Source of the DNA: Planctomycetota bacterium
Lineage (GTDB): Bacteria; Planctomycetota; UBA1135; JADKAF01
Length of the DNA: 64,000 nt
NCBI GenBank assembly: GCA_016793245.1
Contig: JAEUHW010000012.1
Span: 1-64,000, forward strand
Direction: 5' to 3'
Part shown: piece after piece, positions 4,731 through 35,764 of the stretch
How the letters are laid out: every line of letters starts with the position of its first letter
Numbering within the stretch: the stretch's first letter is position 1
Position numbers and translations under genes: made by a program
The notes under the pieces: model-generated
Databases searched by the model: none
What the model was told of the DNA's origin: nothing
Seen by the model: only the letters and a program-made list of their open reading frames with translations

Positions 4731-6110
4731 TCAGCGGGCTTCGAGGGCGCGCCAGCGCGCGAAGCGGCGCAGGAGGCGCGCGGGACGGAGGAGCTCCCGC
4801 CACAGGCGGCCGGGCCGCGAGTAGAACCGCCGGTAGGCCCGGCGGATCTCCGCGTCGATCTCCGCGGCGGAGAGGACGCCGTTGCCGCGCGGCGCATGGC
4901 GCGCGTCGCGCGCGATCAGCGGCTCGTTCGATGCCAGGGCCGCGGCGAGCGAGGTCCCGGGATAGGGTGTCGCCGCGCAGAACTGGGCGCTCTGCAGGTC
5001 GAGCCCGCGCGCGAGCTCGGCCGTGGCGCGCATCTCCTCGCGCGTTTCGCCGGGGAAGCCGAGCTGGAAGAAGCCGCGCGTCGCGATGCCGTGCGCGCGA
5101 CACCAGCGCAGCGCGCTCCGCGCAAGCTCGGGATCGGGCAGCTTGTCGCCGCAGAAGGCCTTCTGCAGGCGCCGCGACGCGGTCTCGATCCCGAACGAGA
5201 TGTGCTCGCAGCCGGCGCGCGCCATCCACGCGACGCGCTCTTCGTCGAGCACCTTGGGCGCGGTCTCGCATTGCCAGCGCAGCGGCAGCCGCCGCTCGGC
5301 GAGCGCGCGGCAGAGCGCGAGCGTGCGCTCGCGCGGGGCGCCGAAGAGCGGATCGCGGAAGACGACGCGCGGGATGCCGAGGGCCGCGATCTGCTCGAGC
5401 TCGCGCAGCACGTGCGCGAGCTCGCGATGGCGGAGCTGCTTCCCCTCCATCGCGACGTAGGCGCAGAACGCGCAGTCGATCGGGCAACCGCGCGAGAGCG
5501 CCGTCGTGGCGACGGGGCCGGGGACATCGGGCAAGCGATAGGACGCGTTCGGCAGGAGATCGCGCGCGGGCAGCGGCAAGGTAGAGAGCTCTCGCCACGG
5601 TGGCAGCGCCGCTCCGCTCGCGAGCTCGCCGCGCGCGTCGAGGCGCGCGCAACCCGCCGGCGGAGGCGCATCGATCGGCGCGCGATCTCCGTCGGCGTCG
5701 AGCCAAGCGCAGAGCGCGCTCTCCTCCTCGTCGATCAGCAACACGGCGCGCGGTGCGGCGCGCGCGAGCTCGAGGGCGCGCGTCCGCGCGATGCCGCCCC
5801 AGAGCACGAGCGGAGCTTCACCGGCGAGCTCGCGGGCGCGCGCGACCTCGCGTTCCCAATCGACCCAGGCGATCTGCGCGATCACCGCATCCCAGGGAGC
5901 GCCCTGCGGATCTCGCGCCGGAGCCTCTCCCGAGACGGTCTCGTCCGCGATCTGCACGCTTCGACCGCGCTCGCGCGCCAGCGCCGCGAGGAGCGCCGTG
6001 CGCGTCGGCGGATAGCGCAGCGCGGGATCGACCTCCATGCCGAAGCCCCCCATCAAATCGCGCGCGACGGCCGGGCCTTCACGCGCGCGAGGGACGAGCA
6101 GCAGCAGCAT
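4731..6110 (-). CDS. B12-binding-type radical SAM protein
   Basis: Encodes 459 residues. The N-terminal ~130 residues have the layout of a cobalamin-binding domain of the radical SAM B12 class (PPTRTALLAALARERG, then a hydrophobic strand and ADETV). The radical SAM cluster motif C209-x3-C213-x2-C216 (GCPIDCAFC) follows, with downstream segments typical of the TIM barrel (ISFGIETASRRLQKAF, FFQLGFPGET). Such proteins use a [4Fe-4S] cluster and SAM, often for methylations or ring chemistry; the substrate cannot be read from sequence. It lies 47 bp after pheT and 62 bp before the lipoprotein gene. The partner genes do not reveal a pathway. Confidence 0.85.
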   Translation of the reverse strand: MLLLLVPRAREGPAVARDLMGGFGMEVDPALRYPPTRTALLAALARERGRSVQIADETVSGEAPARDPQGAPWDAVIAQIAWVDWEREVARARELAGEAPLVLWGGIARTRALELARAAPRAVLLIDEEESALCAWLDADGDRAPIDAPPPAGCARLDARGELASGAALPPWRELSTLPLPARDLLPNASYRLPDVPGPVATTALSRGCPIDCAFCAYVAMEGKQLRHRELAHVLRELEQIAALGIPRVVFRDPLFGAPRERTLALCRALAERRLPLRWQCETAPKVLDEERVAWMARAGCEHISFGIETASRRLQKAFCGDKLPDPELARSALRWCRAHGIATRGFFQLGFPGETREEMRATAELARGLDLQSAQFCAATPYPGTSLAAALASNEPLIARDARHAPRGNGVLSAAEIDAEIRRAYRRFYSRPGRLWRELLRPARLLRRFARWRALEAR

Positions 6111-6157
6111 GGAGCGAGCGTCAGCGAGGGAGCGGAGATCGAATCACGTTCCGACTC

Positions 6158-8575
6158 TCACTCGCGCCGCAGCTCGGCGCCACGAGCTTCCAGCCCGCGC
6201 GCCAGCCGCTCGAGGAAGCGCGCGAGGTCCTTATCGCCCAGCGTGCGATCGGGAGAGAGCAGCTCGACGTGGAACGCGAGGGAGCGCCGCCCCGCTCCGA
6301 CGCTGGCCCCCTCGTAGACATCGAAGGGCTCGATCGTCCCGACCTGCGCGGGCTCCGCGGCGCGGATCAACTCCGCGATCTCCGCCGCGAGCAGCTCGCG
6401 AGGCGCCGCGACCGCGACGTCGAGCCGCGTGGCGGGGAAACGGGGCAAGGGCACATAGGTTCGTACCGCGTCGCGCGCGCCGAGCAACGCGCGGAGATCC
6501 AGGTCGAATAGCGCGGTCCCGGCTTCGACGCCGAGGGCCTGCAGCACGCGCGGATGAGCCTCCGCGATCAGGCCGAGCTCGCGGCCGCCGCGCAGGACGC
6601 GCGCGCAGCGCGCCGGATGCGCCCACGACGGCGTCGGCCCCACGAGCTTCGCGAACTCTAGCCTCGGAGCGTCGAGCCTGAGGCAGAGCTCTTCCAAGAC
6701 GCCCTTCAAGGCGAAGAAGGGGCCCGCCACGAGCTGCTTCGCACCTTCGGCGTCGCGCGCGCTGGCGAGCAGTCCCGCGAGCCAATGCCGCTCGCGCGGC
6801 TCGGAGCGCTCGTTCAGGTGCTCGAGCGCGTAGCCCTTACCGACTTCGAAGAGCGCGACCCGCGACTCGCGCCGCAGATTGTCGAGGAGGTTCGAGAGCA
6901 GGCTCGGCGGTCCTTCGCGGCGGATCCGCGACGCGTTGACCGCGATCGGGTTCAGCACTTCGACGTAGCGCGCGGGGTCCTCGCCGAGCGCGGCGAGCAC
7001 CTCGTCCGGAACGAAGCTGTAGTTCAGCGCTTGGCTGAAGCCGAGTGAGGCCATCACGTCCTCGGCGCGGCGGCGGAGCAGACGCTCCTCGTCGCGGTGC
7101 GGCGGAACGAGAGGCATCGCGTGCGGCACGGGGGCGATGTTGTCGTAGCCCACCATGCGCCCGACCTCTTCGACGAGGTCCTCGGCGATCGAGATGTCCT
7201 TCGTCGCGCGCCACGTGGGCACATCGACGGCGAACGCTCCGTGCTCCTCGCACACTTGGAAGCCCAAGCGCTCGAGGATGTTCACGATGCGCTCGTCGCC
7301 GATCGCTCCGCCCAGGCGCTTCCGCACGAACTCGCCGGAGAGCCGCACCATCTTCCCGGGGCGCTTCCAAGCACCTTCATCGGCGATCGCGGCCGAGACG
7401 CGCGCGTTCGGGCAGAGCTCGCGCGCGAGCGCCGCGAAGCGGTAGGCGGCGTCGAGCGCCTGCGTGGGATCGAGGCTCTTCTCGAAACGCGCCGACGCCT
7501 CCGTGCGCAAGGCGAGGCGCTGCGCCGTGCGGCGCACGGAGACCGCATCGAAGCAGGCGCTCTCGAGCAGGACACGCGTGGTCTCGGGGCCGATCTCCGT
7601 CGCGCCGCCGCCCATCACTCCCGCGATCGCGACGGGGGCATCGCCATCGCAGATCAACAGGTCATCGCGCGTGAGCTGGCGCTCGACGCCATCGAGCGTC
7701 GCCAGCCGTTCGCCGTCCTTCGCGCGCCGCACCACGATCCCCGCGGGCGAGAGCTTCGCCGCGTCGAAGGTGTGATTCGGCTGCCCGAGATCGAGCATCA
7801 CGAAGTTCGAGAGGTCGACCAGGTTCGAGATCGAGCGCTGCCCCACGGCGGCGAGCAGATAGCGGAGCCAACGCGGGCTGCGCTCGACGTGCACGCCCTC
7901 GAGGCTCAGCGCGACGTAGCGCGAGCAGCCGCGCTCGTCCTCGATGCGCACGCGATGCGCGGGCAGCGCTCCGCACGCGGGCTCGGGCGCGGGATACGCG
8001 CGCAGCTCGCGGGCGTAGATCGCGGCGAGCTCGCGCGCGAAGCCGTAGTGGCCCCAGAGATCCGGGCGATGCGTCACCGACTTGTTGTCGATCTCGATCA
8101 CCCAGTCGCTCGCCTCGGGCACCGCGTCCAGGAACTTCGCGCCCGCGCGAAGGCCGTCCTCCAGCACGAGGATCCCCGCGTTCTCGTCGGAGAGCCCGAG
8201 CTCCTTCTCGGAGCAGATCATGCCGAAGGATTCCGCGCCGCGGATCTTCGCCTTCTTGATCTCCAAGTCTCCGGGGAGCTGCGTGCCGATCGGCGCGAAG
8301 GCCACCTTCTGGCCCGCGCGCACGTTGGGCGCGCCGCAGACGACCTGCACGGCTTCGCCGGCGCCGAAGTCGACCTTGGTGAGCGAGAGCTTGTCCGCTT
8401 CGGGGTGCTTCGCGCAGCTCACGACGTGACCGATCACGACGCCTTCGATGCCGGCGCCGAAGCGGTGCAGACCTTCGGTCTCCGCAGTGCCCATCGTGAG
8501 ATCGAGCGCGATGCGCCGCGGCTCGAGCCCGGAGAGGTCCACGTATCGTCCGAGCCAATTCAGAGAGATCTTCAT
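6158..8575 (-). CDS. pheT: Phenylalanyl-tRNA synthetase beta subunit
   Basis: Encodes 805 residues, the usual bacterial length. With PheS it forms the alpha2-beta2 enzyme that charges tRNA-Phe. The start ATG at 8575 gives the family N terminus MKISLNWLGRYVDL; the longer open frame upstream is a shadow of pheS. In order the protein shows the EMAP/tRNA-binding domain (about residues 40-150, GHVVSCAKHPEADKL), the B3/B4 editing region, B5, the core domain, and the C-terminal ferredoxin-fold anticodon-binding domain (PRFPATRLDVAV onward). It starts 17 bp after the pheS stop, so the two are certainly one operon. Confidence 0.97.
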   Translation of the reverse strand: MKISLNWLGRYVDLSGLEPRRIALDLTMGTAETEGLHRFGAGIEGVVIGHVVSCAKHPEADKLSLTKVDFGAGEAVQVVCGAPNVRAGQKVAFAPIGTQLPGDLEIKKAKIRGAESFGMICSEKELGLSDENAGILVLEDGLRAGAKFLDAVPEASDWVIEIDNKSVTHRPDLWGHYGFARELAAIYARELRAYPAPEPACGALPAHRVRIEDERGCSRYVALSLEGVHVERSPRWLRYLLAAVGQRSISNLVDLSNFVMLDLGQPNHTFDAAKLSPAGIVVRRAKDGERLATLDGVERQLTRDDLLICDGDAPVAIAGVMGGGATEIGPETTRVLLESACFDAVSVRRTAQRLALRTEASARFEKSLDPTQALDAAYRFAALARELCPNARVSAAIADEGAWKRPGKMVRLSGEFVRKRLGGAIGDERIVNILERLGFQVCEEHGAFAVDVPTWRATKDISIAEDLVEEVGRMVGYDNIAPVPHAMPLVPPHRDEERLLRRRAEDVMASLGFSQALNYSFVPDEVLAALGEDPARYVEVLNPIAVNASRIRREGPPSLLSNLLDNLRRESRVALFEVGKGYALEHLNERSEPRERHWLAGLLASARDAEGAKQLVAGPFFALKGVLEELCLRLDAPRLEFAKLVGPTPSWAHPARCARVLRGGRELGLIAEAHPRVLQALGVEAGTALFDLDLRALLGARDAVRTYVPLPRFPATRLDVAVAAPRELLAAEIAELIRAAEPAQVGTIEPFDVYEGASVGAGRRSLAFHVELLSPDRTLGDKDLARFLERLARGLEARGAELRRE

Positions 8576-28169: not shown

Positions 28170-29267
28170 ATGCGCCCGAACTCCATCCCTCCGCGCAACG
28201 CGATCTTCCTGCTGGCCGCGAGCTTCCTCTGCTCGCTCACGCCGAGCTGCCTGTGGGGCCTCAGCGACGAGGAGGAGAAGGCCCTCACCTTCTACCGCAG
28301 CCAAGCGATCTACTGGGTCGGCAAGCAGCGCTACCGCGAAGCGCGCCAACAGGCGCAGCGCGGGCTCGAGATCGACGCCGACGACTACGAGCTGAACCGG
28401 CTGATGGGCTATTCGATGGTGATGATCGGCGAGCCGGAGCTCTTCTTCGGCGCGACCGACTACCTCGACAAGTGCGCGTCGCAGAACTGGTTCTCGTCGG
28501 ACTGGAAGCTCGATCTGGTCTACGGCCTCGCCTACCACCGGCAGGCGAAGTACTACCAGGTCGCGATCTTCGACCTGCGGCAGAAGATCGAGAAGACCTC
28601 CGATCCGGTGCAGAAGGCCGAGTACGGCGCGAAGGCGAAGGACTTCGAAGCCAAGATGACGGAGCGCTACGACAACGCGATCCGCCTCTTCTCCGGCATC
28701 GCCGGCGAGATGGACGACTACGACGTCGCCGTCGACAACCTGGCGCAGATCTACGCCAACCTGCGCCGCTGGGACGAAGCGCTCGCGCAGAGCGACATCT
28801 TCATCCGCAACGCCACGCAGGCGTTGAAGGACGAAGAGGCGATCCTGCTGAACGGCGACCTCTCCGCGGCGCAGGAAGAAGGCCATCTCGACTTGATCCG
28901 CCGCCATAAGGTGCGCATGGCGGAGATGCGCGGTCTCCGCGCCAGCATCTACTTCGAGGTCGGCCGCTTCGCCGACTCCGTCGCCGAGTTGGACGAGGTC
29001 CTGCAGCGCCTCGATACGAGCCGCGTCACCGAGTACTTCAATCGCGCCGAGGCGAAAGCAGCGCTGCTGGATCTGGATGGAGCGCGCTCCGACTACCTGA
29101 CCTTCCTGCGCCGCGCGGCAGCCAAGGCCGAGGACGCGCGCATCGCGGAGGCCCGCACGCGCTTGCAGGAGCTCGGTGTCGATCTGGAGAAGCTGCTCGA
29201 GCTCGATCTGGAACGTCTGCGCGCGCGCTCGATCCCCGACGTGCCGTCGCCGACGGACCGCGGCTGA
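28170..29267 (+). CDS. TPR-repeat lipoprotein
   Basis: Encodes 365 residues. A signal peptide with a possible lipobox (LTPSC, C at about residue 27) is followed by TPR-like helical repeats: AIYWVGKQRYREARQQAQRG at about 45-65, a block around DYDVAVDNLAQIYANLRRWDEA, and a third around GLRASIYFEVGRFADSVAEL. It probably acts as a periplasmic scaffold. It lies 42 bp before mgtE on the same strand; nothing links the two functionally. Confidence 0.85.
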   Translation: MRPNSIPPRNAIFLLAASFLCSLTPSCLWGLSDEEEKALTFYRSQAIYWVGKQRYREARQQAQRGLEIDADDYELNRLMGYSMVMIGEPELFFGATDYLDKCASQNWFSSDWKLDLVYGLAYHRQAKYYQVAIFDLRQKIEKTSDPVQKAEYGAKAKDFEAKMTERYDNAIRLFSGIAGEMDDYDVAVDNLAQIYANLRRWDEALAQSDIFIRNATQALKDEEAILLNGDLSAAQEEGHLDLIRRHKVRMAEMRGLRASIYFEVGRFADSVAELDEVLQRLDTSRVTEYFNRAEAKAALLDLDGARSDYLTFLRRAAAKAEDARIAEARTRLQELGVDLEKLLELDLERLRARSIPDVPSPTDRG

Positions 29268-29309: not shown

Positions 29310-30734
29310 ATGACCGAGACGACGCGCCTCTTCTTGCCCGAGATCCGCGAGATGCTCGCGGACGGACAAGCCGGTGAGGTCGTGCAGGTCCTGCGCGACG
29401 TGCACCCGTCGGACTGGGCCGAGCTGCTCACCGATCTCGAGGGCTCCGAGCGCGAGCAGCTCTTCCGCGCGCTGCACGAGGATCTCGACCTCCAGCTCGG
29501 CGTCTTCCGGCAGCTCGAAGCCGAAGCGCAAGTCGAGCTCCTGCGCGCCGTCGGTCACGAGGCGCTGGCTCCGCTCTTGCCGCGCCTGCCGTCGGACGAG
29601 CAGACCGACTTCGTCGCCGCGCTCGCCGAGGATGAGCAGCGGCAGATCCTCTCCGGGCTCCCGCCCGCCGATCGAGCCGACGTCACGCGCCTGCTGCGCT
29701 ACACCGACGGCACGATCGGCTCCTGCATGCAGACCGAGTTCGTCGCGGTCGATCAGGCGGACACGGCGGAGCTGGCCCTCCAACGCGTGCGACGCGCGCC
29801 GCGCGAAGCGCCGGTGTCGGTGCTCTACGTCCTCGACGACCAGCGCCGCCTGCTCGGCCGCGTTTCGCTGACGAAGCTCGTGCGCGCCGAGTCCGACACG
29901 CGGCTCGAAGAGCTCTTCGAGCCCCAGGTGCAGGCCTTGCAGGCCGATGCCCCGCGCGAAGACGCGGTGCGCGCGCTGCAGAAGTACGACGTCGTCGCGC
30001 TGCCGGTGATCAATCCCTTCGAGCAGCTGATCGGGATCATCACCTACGACGACGTGATGGACGTGATGGAAGAGGAAGCGACGGAGGACGCCCAGATGAT
30101 GGGCGCCGTCTCGCCTCTCGAATCGAGCTATCTGCAGACCAGCATCTGGACCTTCGCCAACAAGCGCGGCGGCTGGCTCACGGTGCTCTTCTTCGGCCAG
30201 TTCCTCACCCTCGCGGTGATGAGCCTCTTCCCCGATGCGCGCGTCGCGGCGGCGACGGCGCATCCCGAGCACTTGCTCGCCACGGTGACCGCGCTGCTCA
30301 TGTTCATCCCGCTCGTCGTCTCGGCCGGAGGCAATTGCGGTTCGCAATCGGCGACGCTGATCTGCCGCGCGCTCGCCACCGATGACATCACGCTGCGAGA
30401 CTGGTGGCGCGTCGCCTTGCGCGAGCTCGCGATGGGCATGCTCCTCGGCACCTTCGTCGCGGGCCTCGGCTACTTCTATGCCCGCTACCTCTTCCACCAG
30501 CCGGAGTTCCGCGCACAGGACTACGCGCTGGTGGTGGCGCTCTCGCTCGTCGGCATCATGACCTTCGCCAACCTGCTCGGAGGGCTGCTGCCGTTCGTGC
30601 TGAAGCGGATCGGCCTCGATCCGGCGATCGCCTCGACCCCGCTCGTCGCCTCGCTCTCCGACGCGACCGGCACCTTGATCTTCTACACCGTGTCCTGGTT
30701 CGTGATCTTGGAGCCCTTGCTCTCGGGCTCGTGA
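29310..30734 (+). CDS. mgtE: MgtE-type magnesium transporter
   Basis: Encodes 474 residues. Mg2+-gated Mg2+ channel of the inner membrane. It has the usual order: N-terminal superhelical MgtE_N domain (about 20-130), two CBS domains (about 140-260), a plug helix, and five membrane helices from about residue 285. The selectivity region is present as FIPLVVSAGGNCGSQSAT, with further segments in LLPFVLKRIGLDPAIASTPLV (split here). The gene is complete and ends at a strong hairpin shared with the opposing PDZ gene. Confidence 0.96.
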   Translation: MTETTRLFLPEIREMLADGQAGEVVQVLRDVHPSDWAELLTDLEGSEREQLFRALHEDLDLQLGVFRQLEAEAQVELLRAVGHEALAPLLPRLPSDEQTDFVAALAEDEQRQILSGLPPADRADVTRLLRYTDGTIGSCMQTEFVAVDQADTAELALQRVRRAPREAPVSVLYVLDDQRRLLGRVSLTKLVRAESDTRLEELFEPQVQALQADAPREDAVRALQKYDVVALPVINPFEQLIGIITYDDVMDVMEEEATEDAQMMGAVSPLESSYLQTSIWTFANKRGGWLTVLFFGQFLTLAVMSLFPDARVAAATAHPEHLLATVTALLMFIPLVVSAGGNCGSQSATLICRALATDDITLRDWWRVALRELAMGMLLGTFVAGLGYFYARYLFHQPEFRAQDYALVVALSLVGIMTFANLLGGLLPFVLKRIGLDPAIASTPLVASLSDATGTLIFYTVSWFVILEPLLSGS

Positions 30735-30798: not shown

Positions 30799-32079
30799 CT
30801 ACTTGCCGCCGGCGGGCCCCTCGAGCTTCTTCGGAGCGAGCGGTGCCGCAGGCAGCTCCGCCGAGCCGCTGGCGGGCTTCTCGTTCCTCGACGTCGGCGG
30901 CCGCTGCGCTTCCATCGTGACGCGACCGCTCGAGAAGCGCAGCACCTCGACGCGCACCTTGGCGTCGAGCGGCGTGCGCGCGAGCGCCGCGCGGATCGAC
31001 TCGGGCGTGCGCACCGCTTCGCCCTGGATGCTCAGGATCACGTCCTTCGCGCGCAGACCGAGGCGCTGCGCGAGCGAGCCATCGATCACTTCCTGGACGA
31101 GCAAGCCGGTGGACTGGGGCAGCTCCAGGAAGCTCGCGACCTCGGGATGCAGCGGCTCGATCTTCACGCCGAGGCGCTCGTGCGGAGCGGGCTCCGTCGC
31201 CGGAGGGAGCTCATCGACGCCGGGCAGATCGCGGAAGCCCTCGAGCAACTTCATGCGTTCCCGCAGCGGCTGCAGCGCTTCATCCTGCAGGCGCGGTAGA
31301 CGCTGGAAGGCGTCGGGGATCTCGCGCTCGAGCTGTTTTCGCAGCTCCTCGAAGCCCTCGAAGGCCTGCCCATCGAGATCGGTGTGCAAACGCTCGATCT
31401 GCTTCTTCAGGTCTTCGATGCCGGGGAGCTCCCGGCCTCGACCGATGCGGATGCCGGGGAGCAGATCGGGGTGCTGCCGCTGCAGCTCCTCCATCGACTC
31501 CGCCTCGTAGGTCTTCGTCTCGCGCTGACCATCGACCTCTTCGGTGACCGTCACCTTCACGCGACCGTCGGGGCCGATCTGCACGGATTGCGAGCTGCCG
31601 CGTCCGAAGCGCCCGACTCCGGGCTGCGGTGCGGGTTCCTGTCCGTCGACTTCGCGCGGCTTCTCCGCGCTACCCGCGTCGTGGCGCTCGAGGCGCGAGC
31701 TCGGCGAGGGCGTCGCCTGCGCTTCTTCGAGGCGCCGAAGGAGCTTCCGCGCGTTCCAACGGACCTCGGGATCCTTCGATTCCTGCGCGGCGCGATCGAG
31801 CGCCGCGCGCGCTTCTTCGCCCCGGGCGGCGAGCGCTTCCCGGGCGCGCGAGCGAACGGCATCGTCGGGCGAGCCGAGCTGCTCGATCAGTTCGGAGAAC
31901 GCGTTCGAGCTCGGTGTTCCGCTCTTCGCTCGATCGCGCGGCTCTTGGCTCGGCGTGGCCGAGCTCTCGGTGGTCCGCGGAGAGGGATCCTGCAGTAACG
32001 CGAAGCCGGCCGGCATGGCGGGACCGTTCGTCCAGGCCAGGGCGGGCAGCGCCAGCAAGGCGATCACGGGCGTGCGCAT
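30799..32079 (-). CDS. Secreted PDZ-domain protein with HEAT-like segment
   Basis: Encodes 426 residues. A signal peptide-like N terminus (VIALLALPALAWTNGPAM) is followed by a short HEAT/ARM-like stretch (about 60-115: SPDDAVRSRAREALAARG, DPEVRWNARKLLRRLEE), a charged middle, and one PDZ domain (about 303-385: RLGVKIEPLHPEVASFLEL, VIDGSLAQRLGLRAKDVILS). No protease domain is present. It starts 3 bp after the stop of the pseudo-HtrA gene, as the fourth gene of the sigma/anti-sigma operon, and probably works with it in the envelope. Confidence 0.85.
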   Translation of the reverse strand: MRTPVIALLALPALAWTNGPAMPAGFALLQDPSPRTTESSATPSQEPRDRAKSGTPSSNAFSELIEQLGSPDDAVRSRAREALAARGEEARAALDRAAQESKDPEVRWNARKLLRRLEEAQATPSPSSRLERHDAGSAEKPREVDGQEPAPQPGVGRFGRGSSQSVQIGPDGRVKVTVTEEVDGQRETKTYEAESMEELQRQHPDLLPGIRIGRGRELPGIEDLKKQIERLHTDLDGQAFEGFEELRKQLEREIPDAFQRLPRLQDEALQPLRERMKLLEGFRDLPGVDELPPATEPAPHERLGVKIEPLHPEVASFLELPQSTGLLVQEVIDGSLAQRLGLRAKDVILSIQGEAVRTPESIRAALARTPLDAKVRVEVLRFSSGRVTMEAQRPPTSRNEKPASGSAELPAAPLAPKKLEGPAGGK

Positions 32080-32082
32080 GAC

Positions 32083-33303
32083 TCACTCACCTTCTTTCTT
32101 CTTCGGGTTCGGCGATTCGGCCGAGCCGGGAGCGTCGGTAGCGACCTCCGGATTCAACTCCGCGGTCAGCCCCAGCGTCCTCCCGGATCGACGCACCGAC
32201 ATACGCAGCAGATGCGGCGGCTGTGAAGGCAGCTTGCGCAGCCCCGCCATGAAGTCCGCCGAGTTCCGCAGCGGGATGTCATCGAGCGCGGTGAGCACAT
32301 CGCCTTCGCGGAGCCCCGCGCGCTGCGCCGGCGAGCTCTCGAACACCGCCAGGATCTGGAACGGCTCGAAGGCCGAGGGCCCGCCCGAGGCGCCGAGCTC
32401 CGGTCTCCACACGTAGATGCCGATCCAGGGCTGCGATGGCCACGCCGGAGGCTGACCGTGCGTGCGCGAGAACTCGCGTTGGGCTTCGAGGGCCTCGGCG
32501 CGCAAGCGCGCGAGCGGGATCGCACAAGTGATCGCGGGCTCTCTCGAGTTCATCCCGCGCATGCGCTCTTCGCTGGCTCGCTCGCCGCCGTCCTGCGCTT
32601 CTTCGCCTTCGCCGACGACTTCGAGGTCGGGCAGGAACGCGATCGCTCTCCCGCGCGGATCGACGAGCACTCCGCCATGAGCGGCCGGCCCGAGATCCTG
32701 CTGCAGCACGATGAGCCCCGTACGTCCGCGGCGCGTCTGCCCGACCGCGCTCAAGTTGACCGTCCAGCGCGCGAGCTCGGGCTGACCGCGCACGTCCAGC
32801 GCCGAGGTCGGCGCGACCGCGATCGCGAAGCTGCCCGAGCTCGAGCTCTCCTCGGGGGCGAGGTCGAGCGGTGCCAACGCGAGCTGCGAGTCGGCGTCGA
32901 TCTGCAGACGCACGAAGACCGCCGTGCGCGACTCGTTCGCTCCGATCACATACGCGAGGCACGCGCGGCGCGTCCCGAGCAGGCGCACATACGCGCGATC
33001 GCGCGAGCGGAACGCGGGGTGGAACGGCAGAGCGACGAGGCGCTCCGCGGGCTCCACGACGACGCCCGCGGTATGGAGGTTGGTCTCGGCATCGAGCTTG
33101 AGCTCGACGTGGGCCAACACCTCCTTCGCGCGCTCCGCCGCCGAGCGAACCTCGGAGCCGAGACGCTCGAGAACCGGGATCACCGCTTCGGGCGCCTCGG
33201 CACCCTGGAAGCAGGTGGGCGGTCCTCCTGCACTCGCGGCGCCGGCCGCGACCGAGAGGGCGATCAGCGCGCCGAGCAGGCCATGCAGCGTCTCGCGGAG
33301 CAT
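32083..33303 (-). CDS. HtrA-like protein without catalytic residues, PDZ domain
   Basis: Encodes 406 residues. A signal peptide (about 1-25, ALIALSVAAGAASA) precedes a region (about 75-225) that aligns with the trypsin-like core of HtrA/DegS: GVVVEP, then a His (H95), a strand where the catalytic Asp should be (SRTAVFVRL has Ala there), and AAHGGVLVDPRGRAIAF in place of GNSGGP, with His for the nucleophile Ser. A PDZ domain lies at about 295-385 (PAQRAGLREGDVLTALDDI). It is thus a probable pseudo-protease. It lies 10 bp after the anti-sigma gene and 3 bp before another PDZ gene. The alignment is by eye. Confidence 0.7.
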   Translation of the reverse strand: MLRETLHGLLGALIALSVAAGAASAGGPPTCFQGAEAPEAVIPVLERLGSEVRSAAERAKEVLAHVELKLDAETNLHTAGVVVEPAERLVALPFHPAFRSRDRAYVRLLGTRRACLAYVIGANESRTAVFVRLQIDADSQLALAPLDLAPEESSSSGSFAIAVAPTSALDVRGQPELARWTVNLSAVGQTRRGRTGLIVLQQDLGPAAHGGVLVDPRGRAIAFLPDLEVVGEGEEAQDGGERASEERMRGMNSREPAITCAIPLARLRAEALEAQREFSRTHGQPPAWPSQPWIGIYVWRPELGASGGPSAFEPFQILAVFESSPAQRAGLREGDVLTALDDIPLRNSADFMAGLRKLPSQPPHLLRMSVRRSGRTLGLTAELNPEVATDAPGSAESPNPKKKEGE

Positions 33304-33313
33304 GCGGCCTCGC

Positions 33314-33970
33314 TCAGTAATTCGAGTTCGGCCCGGAGCGGCCGACGAAGTGGGTCTGGCTTCCGCGGGGCGCGCGATCGATCTCCGGAGTTCGCGGCGC
33401 GCCGGAACGCGCAGGATCGAGCACGCCGGCATCGAAGAGATCGCGCACCTCGGAGCGGACCTGCTGCAGCGACGAGGCCGGACGCAGGCCCCCCGCATCG
33501 CCCTCGAGATGAGAGGCGAGCTTCAGGCCCAGCGCGAGAAGGCTCGCACCGAGCAGTCCCGCGGCGAGTGCGATGCGCCAACCCGCAGGAAGGCGTGCCC
33601 CAATATCGAGGAGCCGCCGCGACCGGCTCTTCGGCAGCAACGGCGACGCGAGGGCTTCGTGCATCTGCACGCGCAGTCGCTCCCACAGCACGCTGCCGCC
33701 GCCGCTCGCGGGCGACTGACCAGCGGCGTTTCCGTTTCCCGGCGCCGACTCCAGCTCGCGCAGCGTGCGGAACGCGCTCAGCGCCTGTTGATGAGCGCGC
33801 AGCGCGCGCGCACATCCGAGGCAGGAGCGCAGGTGCTCCGCGACGGTCGCGCCGAGCTCCGGCTCCAAGTCCCCTCCCACGTGGAGAGGCAGCAGGTCTT
33901 CGACTCTTCGACAACGCATCAGGGGGATCTCGGAGAGAGCCGCGGGAAGCTGGCGGCCCAGGGGACTCAT
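33314..33970 (-). CDS. Zinc-finger anti-sigma factor (zf-HC2 type)
   Basis: Encodes 218 residues from ATG 33970. An anti-sigma zinc-binding motif is clear: MRC followed by EHLRSCLGC (H-x3-C-x2-C). A single membrane helix (WRIALAAGLLGASLLALGLKL, shown as one segment around residues 135-155) is followed by a short extracytoplasmic domain. It begins 20 bp after the ECF sigma gene and should hold that sigma factor at the membrane. An in-frame ATG at 33919 (MRCRR) is another possible start. Confidence 0.85.
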   Translation of the reverse strand: MSPLGRQLPAALSEIPLMRCRRVEDLLPLHVGGDLEPELGATVAEHLRSCLGCARALRAHQQALSAFRTLRELESAPGNGNAAGQSPASGGGSVLWERLRVQMHEALASPLLPKSRSRRLLDIGARLPAGWRIALAAGLLGASLLALGLKLASHLEGDAGGLRPASSLQQVRSEVRDLFDAGVLDPARSGAPRTPEIDRAPRGSQTHFVGRSGPNSNY

Positions 33971-33990
33971 CGCATTTCGAGGCGCCGGAC

Positions 33991-34629
33991 TCAAGAGGAG
34001 GCGGGGTGCTCCTTCACCAAGCGTTCCCAGTGCTCCTTGAAGAGCTTGCGCGCGCGGTGGAGGCGCCAACGCACGGTGGCATGGCTGGCGCCGACCACCG
34101 GGGCGATCTCCTTGCAGCTCAGCCCCTCCAGATCGCGCAGCACGAGGACCGCGCGAAACGAAGAGGGCAGCTTCTCGATCACCCGCCGCACGAGCTGGCG
34201 CGTCTCCTCGCTCTCGGCCGGCGAATCGTCGCCGCGCTTCGCCGCCAGGCGCTCTTCGAGGCCGTCGAGCGGAACGGCCTTCTGCACGGCGATCTTGCGC
34301 AGCCGGTCGATGGCCAGGTTCTGCACGATGCGGAAGAACCAGGTGTAGAACGAGCGCGAGAAGTCGAAGCGATCGAGGGAGCGGTAGACCCGCAGGAAGG
34401 CCTCCTGGGCGACATCCCAGGCCTCTTCCTCGCGGTTCAGCAGCCCGAAGGCGATGAAGAACGCGCGCTTCTCGTAGCGCTCGACGAGCTCGCGGAACGC
34501 CTCCTCTTCCCCGCGCTGGGAGCGCAGGAGGAGGTCGGCGTCGCGGGCATCCCGCAGCGGATCGGGGCCCTGGGCCGCGCTCGGGCGGGGGTCGTTCGTG
34601 CGTTGGCTCACGAGGCGCAAGGCGTGCAT
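33991..34629 (-). CDS. ECF-type RNA polymerase sigma factor (RpoE-like)
   Basis: Encodes 212 residues. Region 2 (about 40-110: AFRELVERYEKRAFFIAFGL, SFYTWFFRIVQNLAIDRLRK) and region 4 (about 150-200: LPSSFRAVLVLRDLEGLSCK, SHATVRWRLHRARK) are intact. ATG 34629 is preceded by GGAG at 5 nt. The operon continues with a zinc-finger anti-sigma factor, a pseudo-HtrA and a PDZ protein, an arrangement that suggests an envelope-stress response. Confidence 0.94.
   Translation of the reverse strand: MHALRLVSQRTNDPRPSAAQGPDPLRDARDADLLLRSQRGEEEAFRELVERYEKRAFFIAFGLLNREEEAWDVAQEAFLRVYRSLDRFDFSRSFYTWFFRIVQNLAIDRLRKIAVQKAVPLDGLEERLAAKRGDDSPAESEETRQLVRRVIEKLPSSFRAVLVLRDLEGLSCKEIAPVVGASHATVRWRLHRARKLFKEHWERLVKEHPASS

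Positions 34630-34765: not shown

Positions 34766-35764
<999 letters not shown>

Follow-up and report, generated by a model that had tools for sequence, protein, structure and literature searches.

How do extracytoplasmic function (ECF) sigma factor systems outside Proteobacteria sense envelope stress, and what might a protease-like protein contribute to such a system once it has lost the means to cut? These questions are raised by a four-gene operon in a 64,000-nucleotide stretch of DNA (the window; contig JAEUHW010000012.1 of assembly GCA_016793245.1) from a metagenome-assembled genome of the phylum Planctomycetota. The operon encodes an ECF sigma factor, a zf-HC2 anti-sigma factor, an HtrA-like protein without a catalytic triad (pseudo-HtrA) and a second PDZ protein with a HEAT-like segment (HEAT-PDZ). 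In known systems, the PDZ domain of DegS reads YxF ends and that of AlgW reads the tail of MucE, which ends in WVF (PMC8545111). In this report, we performed a comparative analysis of the operon in the window's order and in the phylum, which offers, for much of Planctomycetota, a concrete and testable answer: a conserved PDZ pseudoprotease together with a candidate ligand—the C-terminus of the anti-sigma factor—amenable to testing with short peptides.

Results

The main finding is that the anti-sigma factor's own periplasmic C-terminus nearly always has a PDZ-ligand-like aromatic end, as judged from sequence, wherever a pseudo-HtrA is present. In the window, this protein matches zf-HC2 (E 3.9e-5; 24.1 bits against a cut-off of 22.2) and has, by hydropathy, a single transmembrane helix at residues 133-151, beyond which a C-terminal segment of ~67 aa is taken as periplasmic; its start codon is uncertain, which leaves the C-terminus unaffected. 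Among the 31 operons of the window's order that contain a pseudo-HtrA, the last residue of the anti-sigma factor is Phe in 18, Tyr in 5, Trp in 1, His in 4 and Leu in 3, and is thus F/Y/W in 24/31. The constraint falls on the terminus alone, as the rest of the tail changes fast: aromatic residues make up 0-6% at positions -2 to -20, D, S or E predominates at position -2 (23/31), and positions -3 and -4 are frequently basic. By comparison, an F/Y/W end is found in 3.5% of the 202 called genes at the same loci, in none of 20 other zf-HC2 proteins from the same genomes, and in 2 of the 57 anti-sigma factors of the same order that are linked to the conserved neighbour accA and have no pseudo-HtrA. 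A gene-overlap constraint as the source of the terminal Phe was ruled out, since both the stop codons (TGA, TAA, TAG) and the spacers that follow the anti-sigma gene vary.

Several observations weigh against the pseudo-HtrA as the dedicated reader of this end. One family (f2; locus L156) retains -GRF without a pseudo-HtrA, and the anti-sigma factor of L187 ends in Trp, also without one; those of family f7 end in His; L281, whose pseudo-HtrA is decayed, ends in the non-aromatic -FYR; and the window itself has one of the most divergent tails (-NSNY) and pseudo-HtrAs. The tail could, moreover, be read by other PDZ proteins. Finally, the contrast within the order comes down to about two events in which the pseudo-HtrA was lost independently, and an independent-pairs test was not significant. 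The prediction was therefore tested on new loci, an F/Y/W end being predicted beforehand for 40 further loci in the phylum picked by pseudo-HtrA score and not by tail. Where sigma factor, anti-sigma factor and pseudo-HtrA occur together, the anti-sigma factor ends in F or Y at 25/27 loci, the other two ending in I and L, and counted by family the end is aromatic in 17/19. Against the 3.5% background, binomial p is about 1e-34 (25/27) and 2e-23 (17/19), values that are uncorrected for shared ancestry. Five loci outside this sample gave four aromatic ends (-SENY, -RNDF, -RDDF and -WDEF); the fifth, where the HtrA is decayed, ends in -GFYR.

A different ending, Arg, is seen in 41/57 of the anti-sigma factors without a pseudo-HtrA (families f5 and f8; L167-L235); in f8 it is often preceded by a hydrophobic residue. 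This makes a second conserved C-terminal signature, whose reader may be the HEAT-PDZ protein.

The second finding is that the pseudo-HtrA is a protease-derived protein conserved without its active site. When the window protein is aligned with intact HtrAs, Thr127 takes the place of the catalytic Asp and His209 that of the nucleophile Ser (GPAA[H]GG for GNSGG), while His95 falls in the catalytic-His column in one alignment and is shifted in another. None of the ~60 operon-linked homologues aligned has a complete triad, and at most one of its three residues is retained: Ser in L276, L289 and L294, and Asp in L035 and L309. Residues found at the nucleophile position are A, G, S, P, C, Q, H, D, N, R, T, I and V; G or N predominates at the Asp position, and nearly any residue occurs at the His position. 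Hence the His-Asp-Ser triad by which the HtrA/Do serine protease family is recognized is found neither in the window protein nor in its operon-linked homologues. One candidate exception, L313, was rejected, as its full triad belongs to an intact HtrA encoded next door in an overlapping frame, and the pseudo-HtrA of that operon reads GDCGG. Many homologues have in common a new signature, NPGDxGG, and keep the PDZ domain as well, and in family f4 V-x-P replaces TNxH; these shared signatures mark the pseudo-HtrA as a family that has been maintained, as opposed to a collection of newly decayed genes.

The predicted fold is that of an HtrA. The Trypsin_2 match of the window protein in Pfam is sub-threshold (E 0.013), and its AlphaFold2 model is of low confidence (mean predicted local distance difference test score, pLDDT, 64), yet the top Foldseek matches of this model in the Protein Data Bank are all HtrA proteases (E 2.6e-14). 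The model of an orthologue from Planctomycetes bacterium UBA7888 (L100; pLDDT 77.5) has DegP, DegQ, DegS and AlgW as top matches, with E down to 2e-22. Global template-modelling scores are modest, 0.34 for the window protein and about 0.5 for the orthologue, because the two domains are oriented differently relative to each other, and the models therefore back the fold and not a quaternary state. Together, these predictions support a trypsin-like plus PDZ fold, as in the HtrA/Do (DegP/DegS) family. Both points bear out the first-pass annotation of this DNA, which had described the protein as HtrA-like but lacking the catalytic Asp and Ser, had proposed structure prediction as a check of the trypsin-like fold, and had named an intact triad, which was not found, as evidence to the contrary.

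Next to the proposed sensor, a cutting enzyme has to be accounted for. By Pfam and alignment, the window operon contains no active HtrA that could serve as site-1 protease. The closest approach to such a partner is seen in other families, whose operons include an intact HtrA gene farther downstream (L290, L291, L292, L294, L297, L298, L299, L303, L306 and others). The window genome has 21 Trypsin_2 matches elsewhere, and intact HtrAs are encoded there. Peptidase_M50 proteins (RseP-like) are present in 11/11 genomes tested, namely the window genome (G000) and 10 others. The window genome also has a 1345-aa open frame with three tandem Trypsin_2 matches (G000:C86 5777-7660; L142, L238, L245, L246).

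The block accA-sigma-anti-sigma-[pseudo-HtrA]-[HEAT-PDZ] recurs throughout the window's order and in many other Planctomycetota families, and it is therefore not the product of decay in one genome. This is the outcome of the synteny survey suggested by the same annotation, whose four-gene operon (ECF sigma factor, zf-HC2 anti-sigma factor, HtrA-like protein and HEAT-like PDZ protein, with gaps of 3-20 bp) agrees with our coordinates, Pfam matches and gaps. At 22/22 first-found loci, purL is divergent from accA, which is followed by the genes for sigma factor, anti-sigma factor and pseudo-HtrA; a TPR gene and genes for ATP synthase lie in the vicinity, and the block is cut short where a contig ends. 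A survey of accA neighbourhoods found both the pseudo-HtrA and HEAT-PDZ genes in families f1 (that of the window), f3, f6 and f7, the pseudo-HtrA gene only in f4, and the HEAT-PDZ gene only in f2, f5 and f8; a profile search with the HEAT-PDZ protein confirmed this pattern across the order. A restriction of the pseudo-HtrA to f1 and f4, suggested by a score gap, was ruled out, as f3, f6 and f7 carry more divergent copies found by synteny, and a profile search with the pseudo-HtrA identified further families in which sigma factor, anti-sigma factor and pseudo-HtrA occur together. The idea that the HEAT-PDZ gene is peculiar to the window was likewise ruled out by orthologues beside accA across the order and much of the phylum. 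Elsewhere in the phylum, too, this gene adjoins accA, with or without sigma genes. At L272, L275, L278, L282 and L285 it lies at or near accA with no sigma or anti-sigma match between, and its link to accA therefore predates the sigma module or extends beyond it.

The features of the window are listed in Table 1. From the sigma gene to the HEAT-PDZ gene, the spacers are 20, 10 and 3 bp. The sigma gene product matches Sigma70_r2 (E 2e-17) and Sigma70_r4_2 (E 6e-12), as well as many sigma-70 ECF models of NCBIfam. PDZ_6 is over cut-off in both the pseudo-HtrA, where PDZ is the only C-terminal domain found by Pfam, and the HEAT-PDZ protein, in which HEAT_2 is also over cut-off. The TPR protein gene (28170-29267) is a convergent neighbour of the module conserved across the order, and in the window a gene for an MgtE-like transporter (29310-30734) sits between the two.

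Table 1. Coordinates of the operon, its proposed functional sites and the neighbouring accA gene in the window
Feature	Position	Strand	Basis
ECF (RpoE/SigW-like) sigma factor, 212 aa	33991..34629	-	Pfam Sigma70_r2 and Sigma70_r4_2 over cut-off
zf-HC2 (ZAS-type) anti-sigma factor, 218 aa from this start	33314..33970	-	Pfam zf-HC2, hydropathy
Anti-sigma C-terminal tail -Asn-Ser-Asn-Tyr-COOH, proposed PDZ ligand	33317..33328	-	Aromatic end conserved in operon-linked orthologues
Pseudo-HtrA, 406 aa: signal peptide/anchor, trypsin-like domain without triad, C-terminal PDZ	32083..33303	-	
PDZ of pseudo-HtrA, about residues 289-385, carboxylate-binding-type loop WIGI	32149..32439	-	Pfam PDZ_6
Codon of Thr127, catalytic-Asp position of pseudo-HtrA	32923..32925	-	Alignment
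Codon of His209, nucleophile-Ser position of pseudo-HtrA (GPAA[H]GG)	32677..32679	-	Alignment
Codon of His95, possibly catalytic-His position of pseudo-HtrA, alignment ambiguous	33019..33021	-	
HEAT-PDZ, 426 aa: signal-peptide protein, HEAT-like segment, C-terminal PDZ	30799..32079	-	Pfam HEAT_2, PDZ_6
accA (acetyl-CoA carboxylase carboxyltransferase alpha), conserved neighbour immediately upstream of sigma gene	34766..35764	-	Recurrent synteny

Discussion

The reading that we prefer, and hold with moderate confidence, is that the module would be an ECF sigma/anti-sigma envelope-stress system in which the conserved pseudo-HtrA acts as a non-proteolytic PDZ adaptor or guard on the anti-sigma tail while partner proteases do the cutting. 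The anti-sigma factor would cross the inner membrane once and expose an aromatic C-terminus resembling the C-terminal peptides, YxF among them, read by DegS/AlgW-type PDZ domains. The PDZ domain of the pseudo-HtrA would hold this tail, the triad-less trypsin-like domain being a scaffold and not an enzyme. Holding the tail would most likely shield the anti-sigma factor from, or present it to, separate active proteases, with an intact HtrA cutting first and an RseP-like M50 protease second, and release of the sigma factor could be brought about when misfolded envelope proteins whose C-termini resemble the tail compete for the PDZ domain. The dead domain might act as a guard in the manner of RseB; alternatively, it might resemble MamO, a non-catalytic activator of the active HtrA MamE (PMC4794232). 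Control of anti-sigma cleavage by a PDZ domain is a possibility raised by sequence signatures in both partners, the ligand-like end and the PDZ loop. The first-pass annotation had proposed that the PDZ proteins sense but do not cut and that a partner protease may exist, and this fits the absence of the triad from all operon-linked homologues and the presence of intact HtrAs and M50 proteases. Its assumption that outside, porin-like peptides are what is sensed has to be partly recast: it had also raised the question of binding to the anti-sigma tail, and it is the C-terminus of the anti-sigma factor itself that the comparison of operons singles out as the likely ligand.

Other explanations have to be weighed. 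The one that survives best, which we nevertheless consider unlikely, is that an active PDZ protease, either an intact HtrA or one of Ctp/Prc type, reads the aromatic tail as a degradation tag, while the pseudo-HtrA has different ligands in the envelope, or its role is limited to stabilising an active HtrA in the way of MamO and MamE. Besides this precedent (PMC4794232), the intact HtrAs within the same operon in several families, the many Trypsin_2 matches in the window genome and the aromatic tail that L156 retains without a pseudo-HtrA are all in keeping with such a tag. However, the tail tracks the pseudo-HtrA: without it, an aromatic end is almost absent (2/57), even though the whole order is rich in HtrA homologues. 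It is distinctly improbable that the pseudo-HtrA and HEAT-PDZ proteins are merely periplasmic chaperones of the regulon with no signalling role, the tail being inherited or serving membrane or oligomer contacts. HtrA family members can act as chaperones, stress-regulon genes often sit beside their sigma factor, and HEAT-PDZ adjoins accA also without a sigma factor; yet a constraint confined to the terminus of a fast-changing tail, and its recurrence in 17/19 further families, are hard to explain without a reader of the C-terminus. That the HtrA-like protein retains proteolytic activity, through a different nucleophile or in a mixed trimer where it completes another subunit's site, is very improbable, for despite the single catalytic residues kept in a few homologues, none keeps two of the three, and the nucleophile position holds 13 different residues.

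The pseudo-HtrA as a proposed non-cutting reader of the anti-sigma tail can be set beside several known systems, with similarities and differences. The module would work in the manner of RpoE-RseA-DegS-RseB signalling and probably goes back to the same logic. Like RpoE-RseA-DegS-RseB-RseP in Escherichia coli and AlgU-MucA-AlgW-MucB-MucP in Pseudomonas aeruginosa, it combines an ECF sigma factor and an adjoining single-pass anti-sigma factor with periplasmic HtrA-type/PDZ proteins and an RseP-like M50 protease in the genome. The main differences are that the operon-linked HtrA has no triad, that the anti-sigma factor itself, and not (only) outer-membrane proteins, carries the aromatic PDZ-ligand-like C-terminus, and that there is an additional PDZ protein with a HEAT segment. 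The role proposed for the pseudo-HtrA, that of a non-proteolytic periplasmic anti-sigma binder controlling cleavage, would be the role of RseB/MucB, but its fold is trypsin-like plus PDZ and not that of RseB, and no MucB/RseB domain was matched among the Pfam and NCBIfam results for the four proteins. With the magnetosome pseudoprotease MamO (PMC4794232), the pseudo-HtrA has in common an HtrA origin, an incomplete triad and an active partner HtrA, here in the same operon in several families; MamO, however, binds metal via a di-histidine motif, carries a TauE-like domain and has no sigma/anti-sigma partner. In the open literature, with many subscription papers lying outside the scope of the search, we came across no account of an anti-sigma operon that contains a pseudo-HtrA.

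A bolder form of our preferred reading, to which we give somewhat less than an even chance, would be phylum-wide "tethered ligand" sigma-E signalling: the anti-sigma tail would be docked on an ancient pseudo-HtrA and displaced by misfolded envelope proteins with similar ends, and the cut would then be made by another, intact HtrA, which some families encode in the operon. If true, the logic of DegS would here be split into a non-cutting sensor and a cutter elsewhere. It also points to a way in which protease-sensors in general may be divided into a sensor that does not cut and a separate protease, for which MamO/MamE is the nearest precedent.

Other families have further PDZ proteins beside the sigma gene. 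Immediately upstream of this gene, or close to it, they encode a periplasmic PDZ/coiled-coil protein that frequently has two PDZ domains (L297 350-2830, L306 6497-7714, L308 1584-2957 and L324 4883-6811). These PDZ-rich genes were considered as site-2 proteases and rejected, as no metalloprotease motif is plausibly placed in them. In a distant planctomycete (L286; G165), the same parts are wired differently: the anti-sigma factor (5076-5765) ends in an apparent fused PDZ domain and is followed by a HEAT-PDZ gene (5768-6847) and then by an HtrA with an intact triad (7004-8001).

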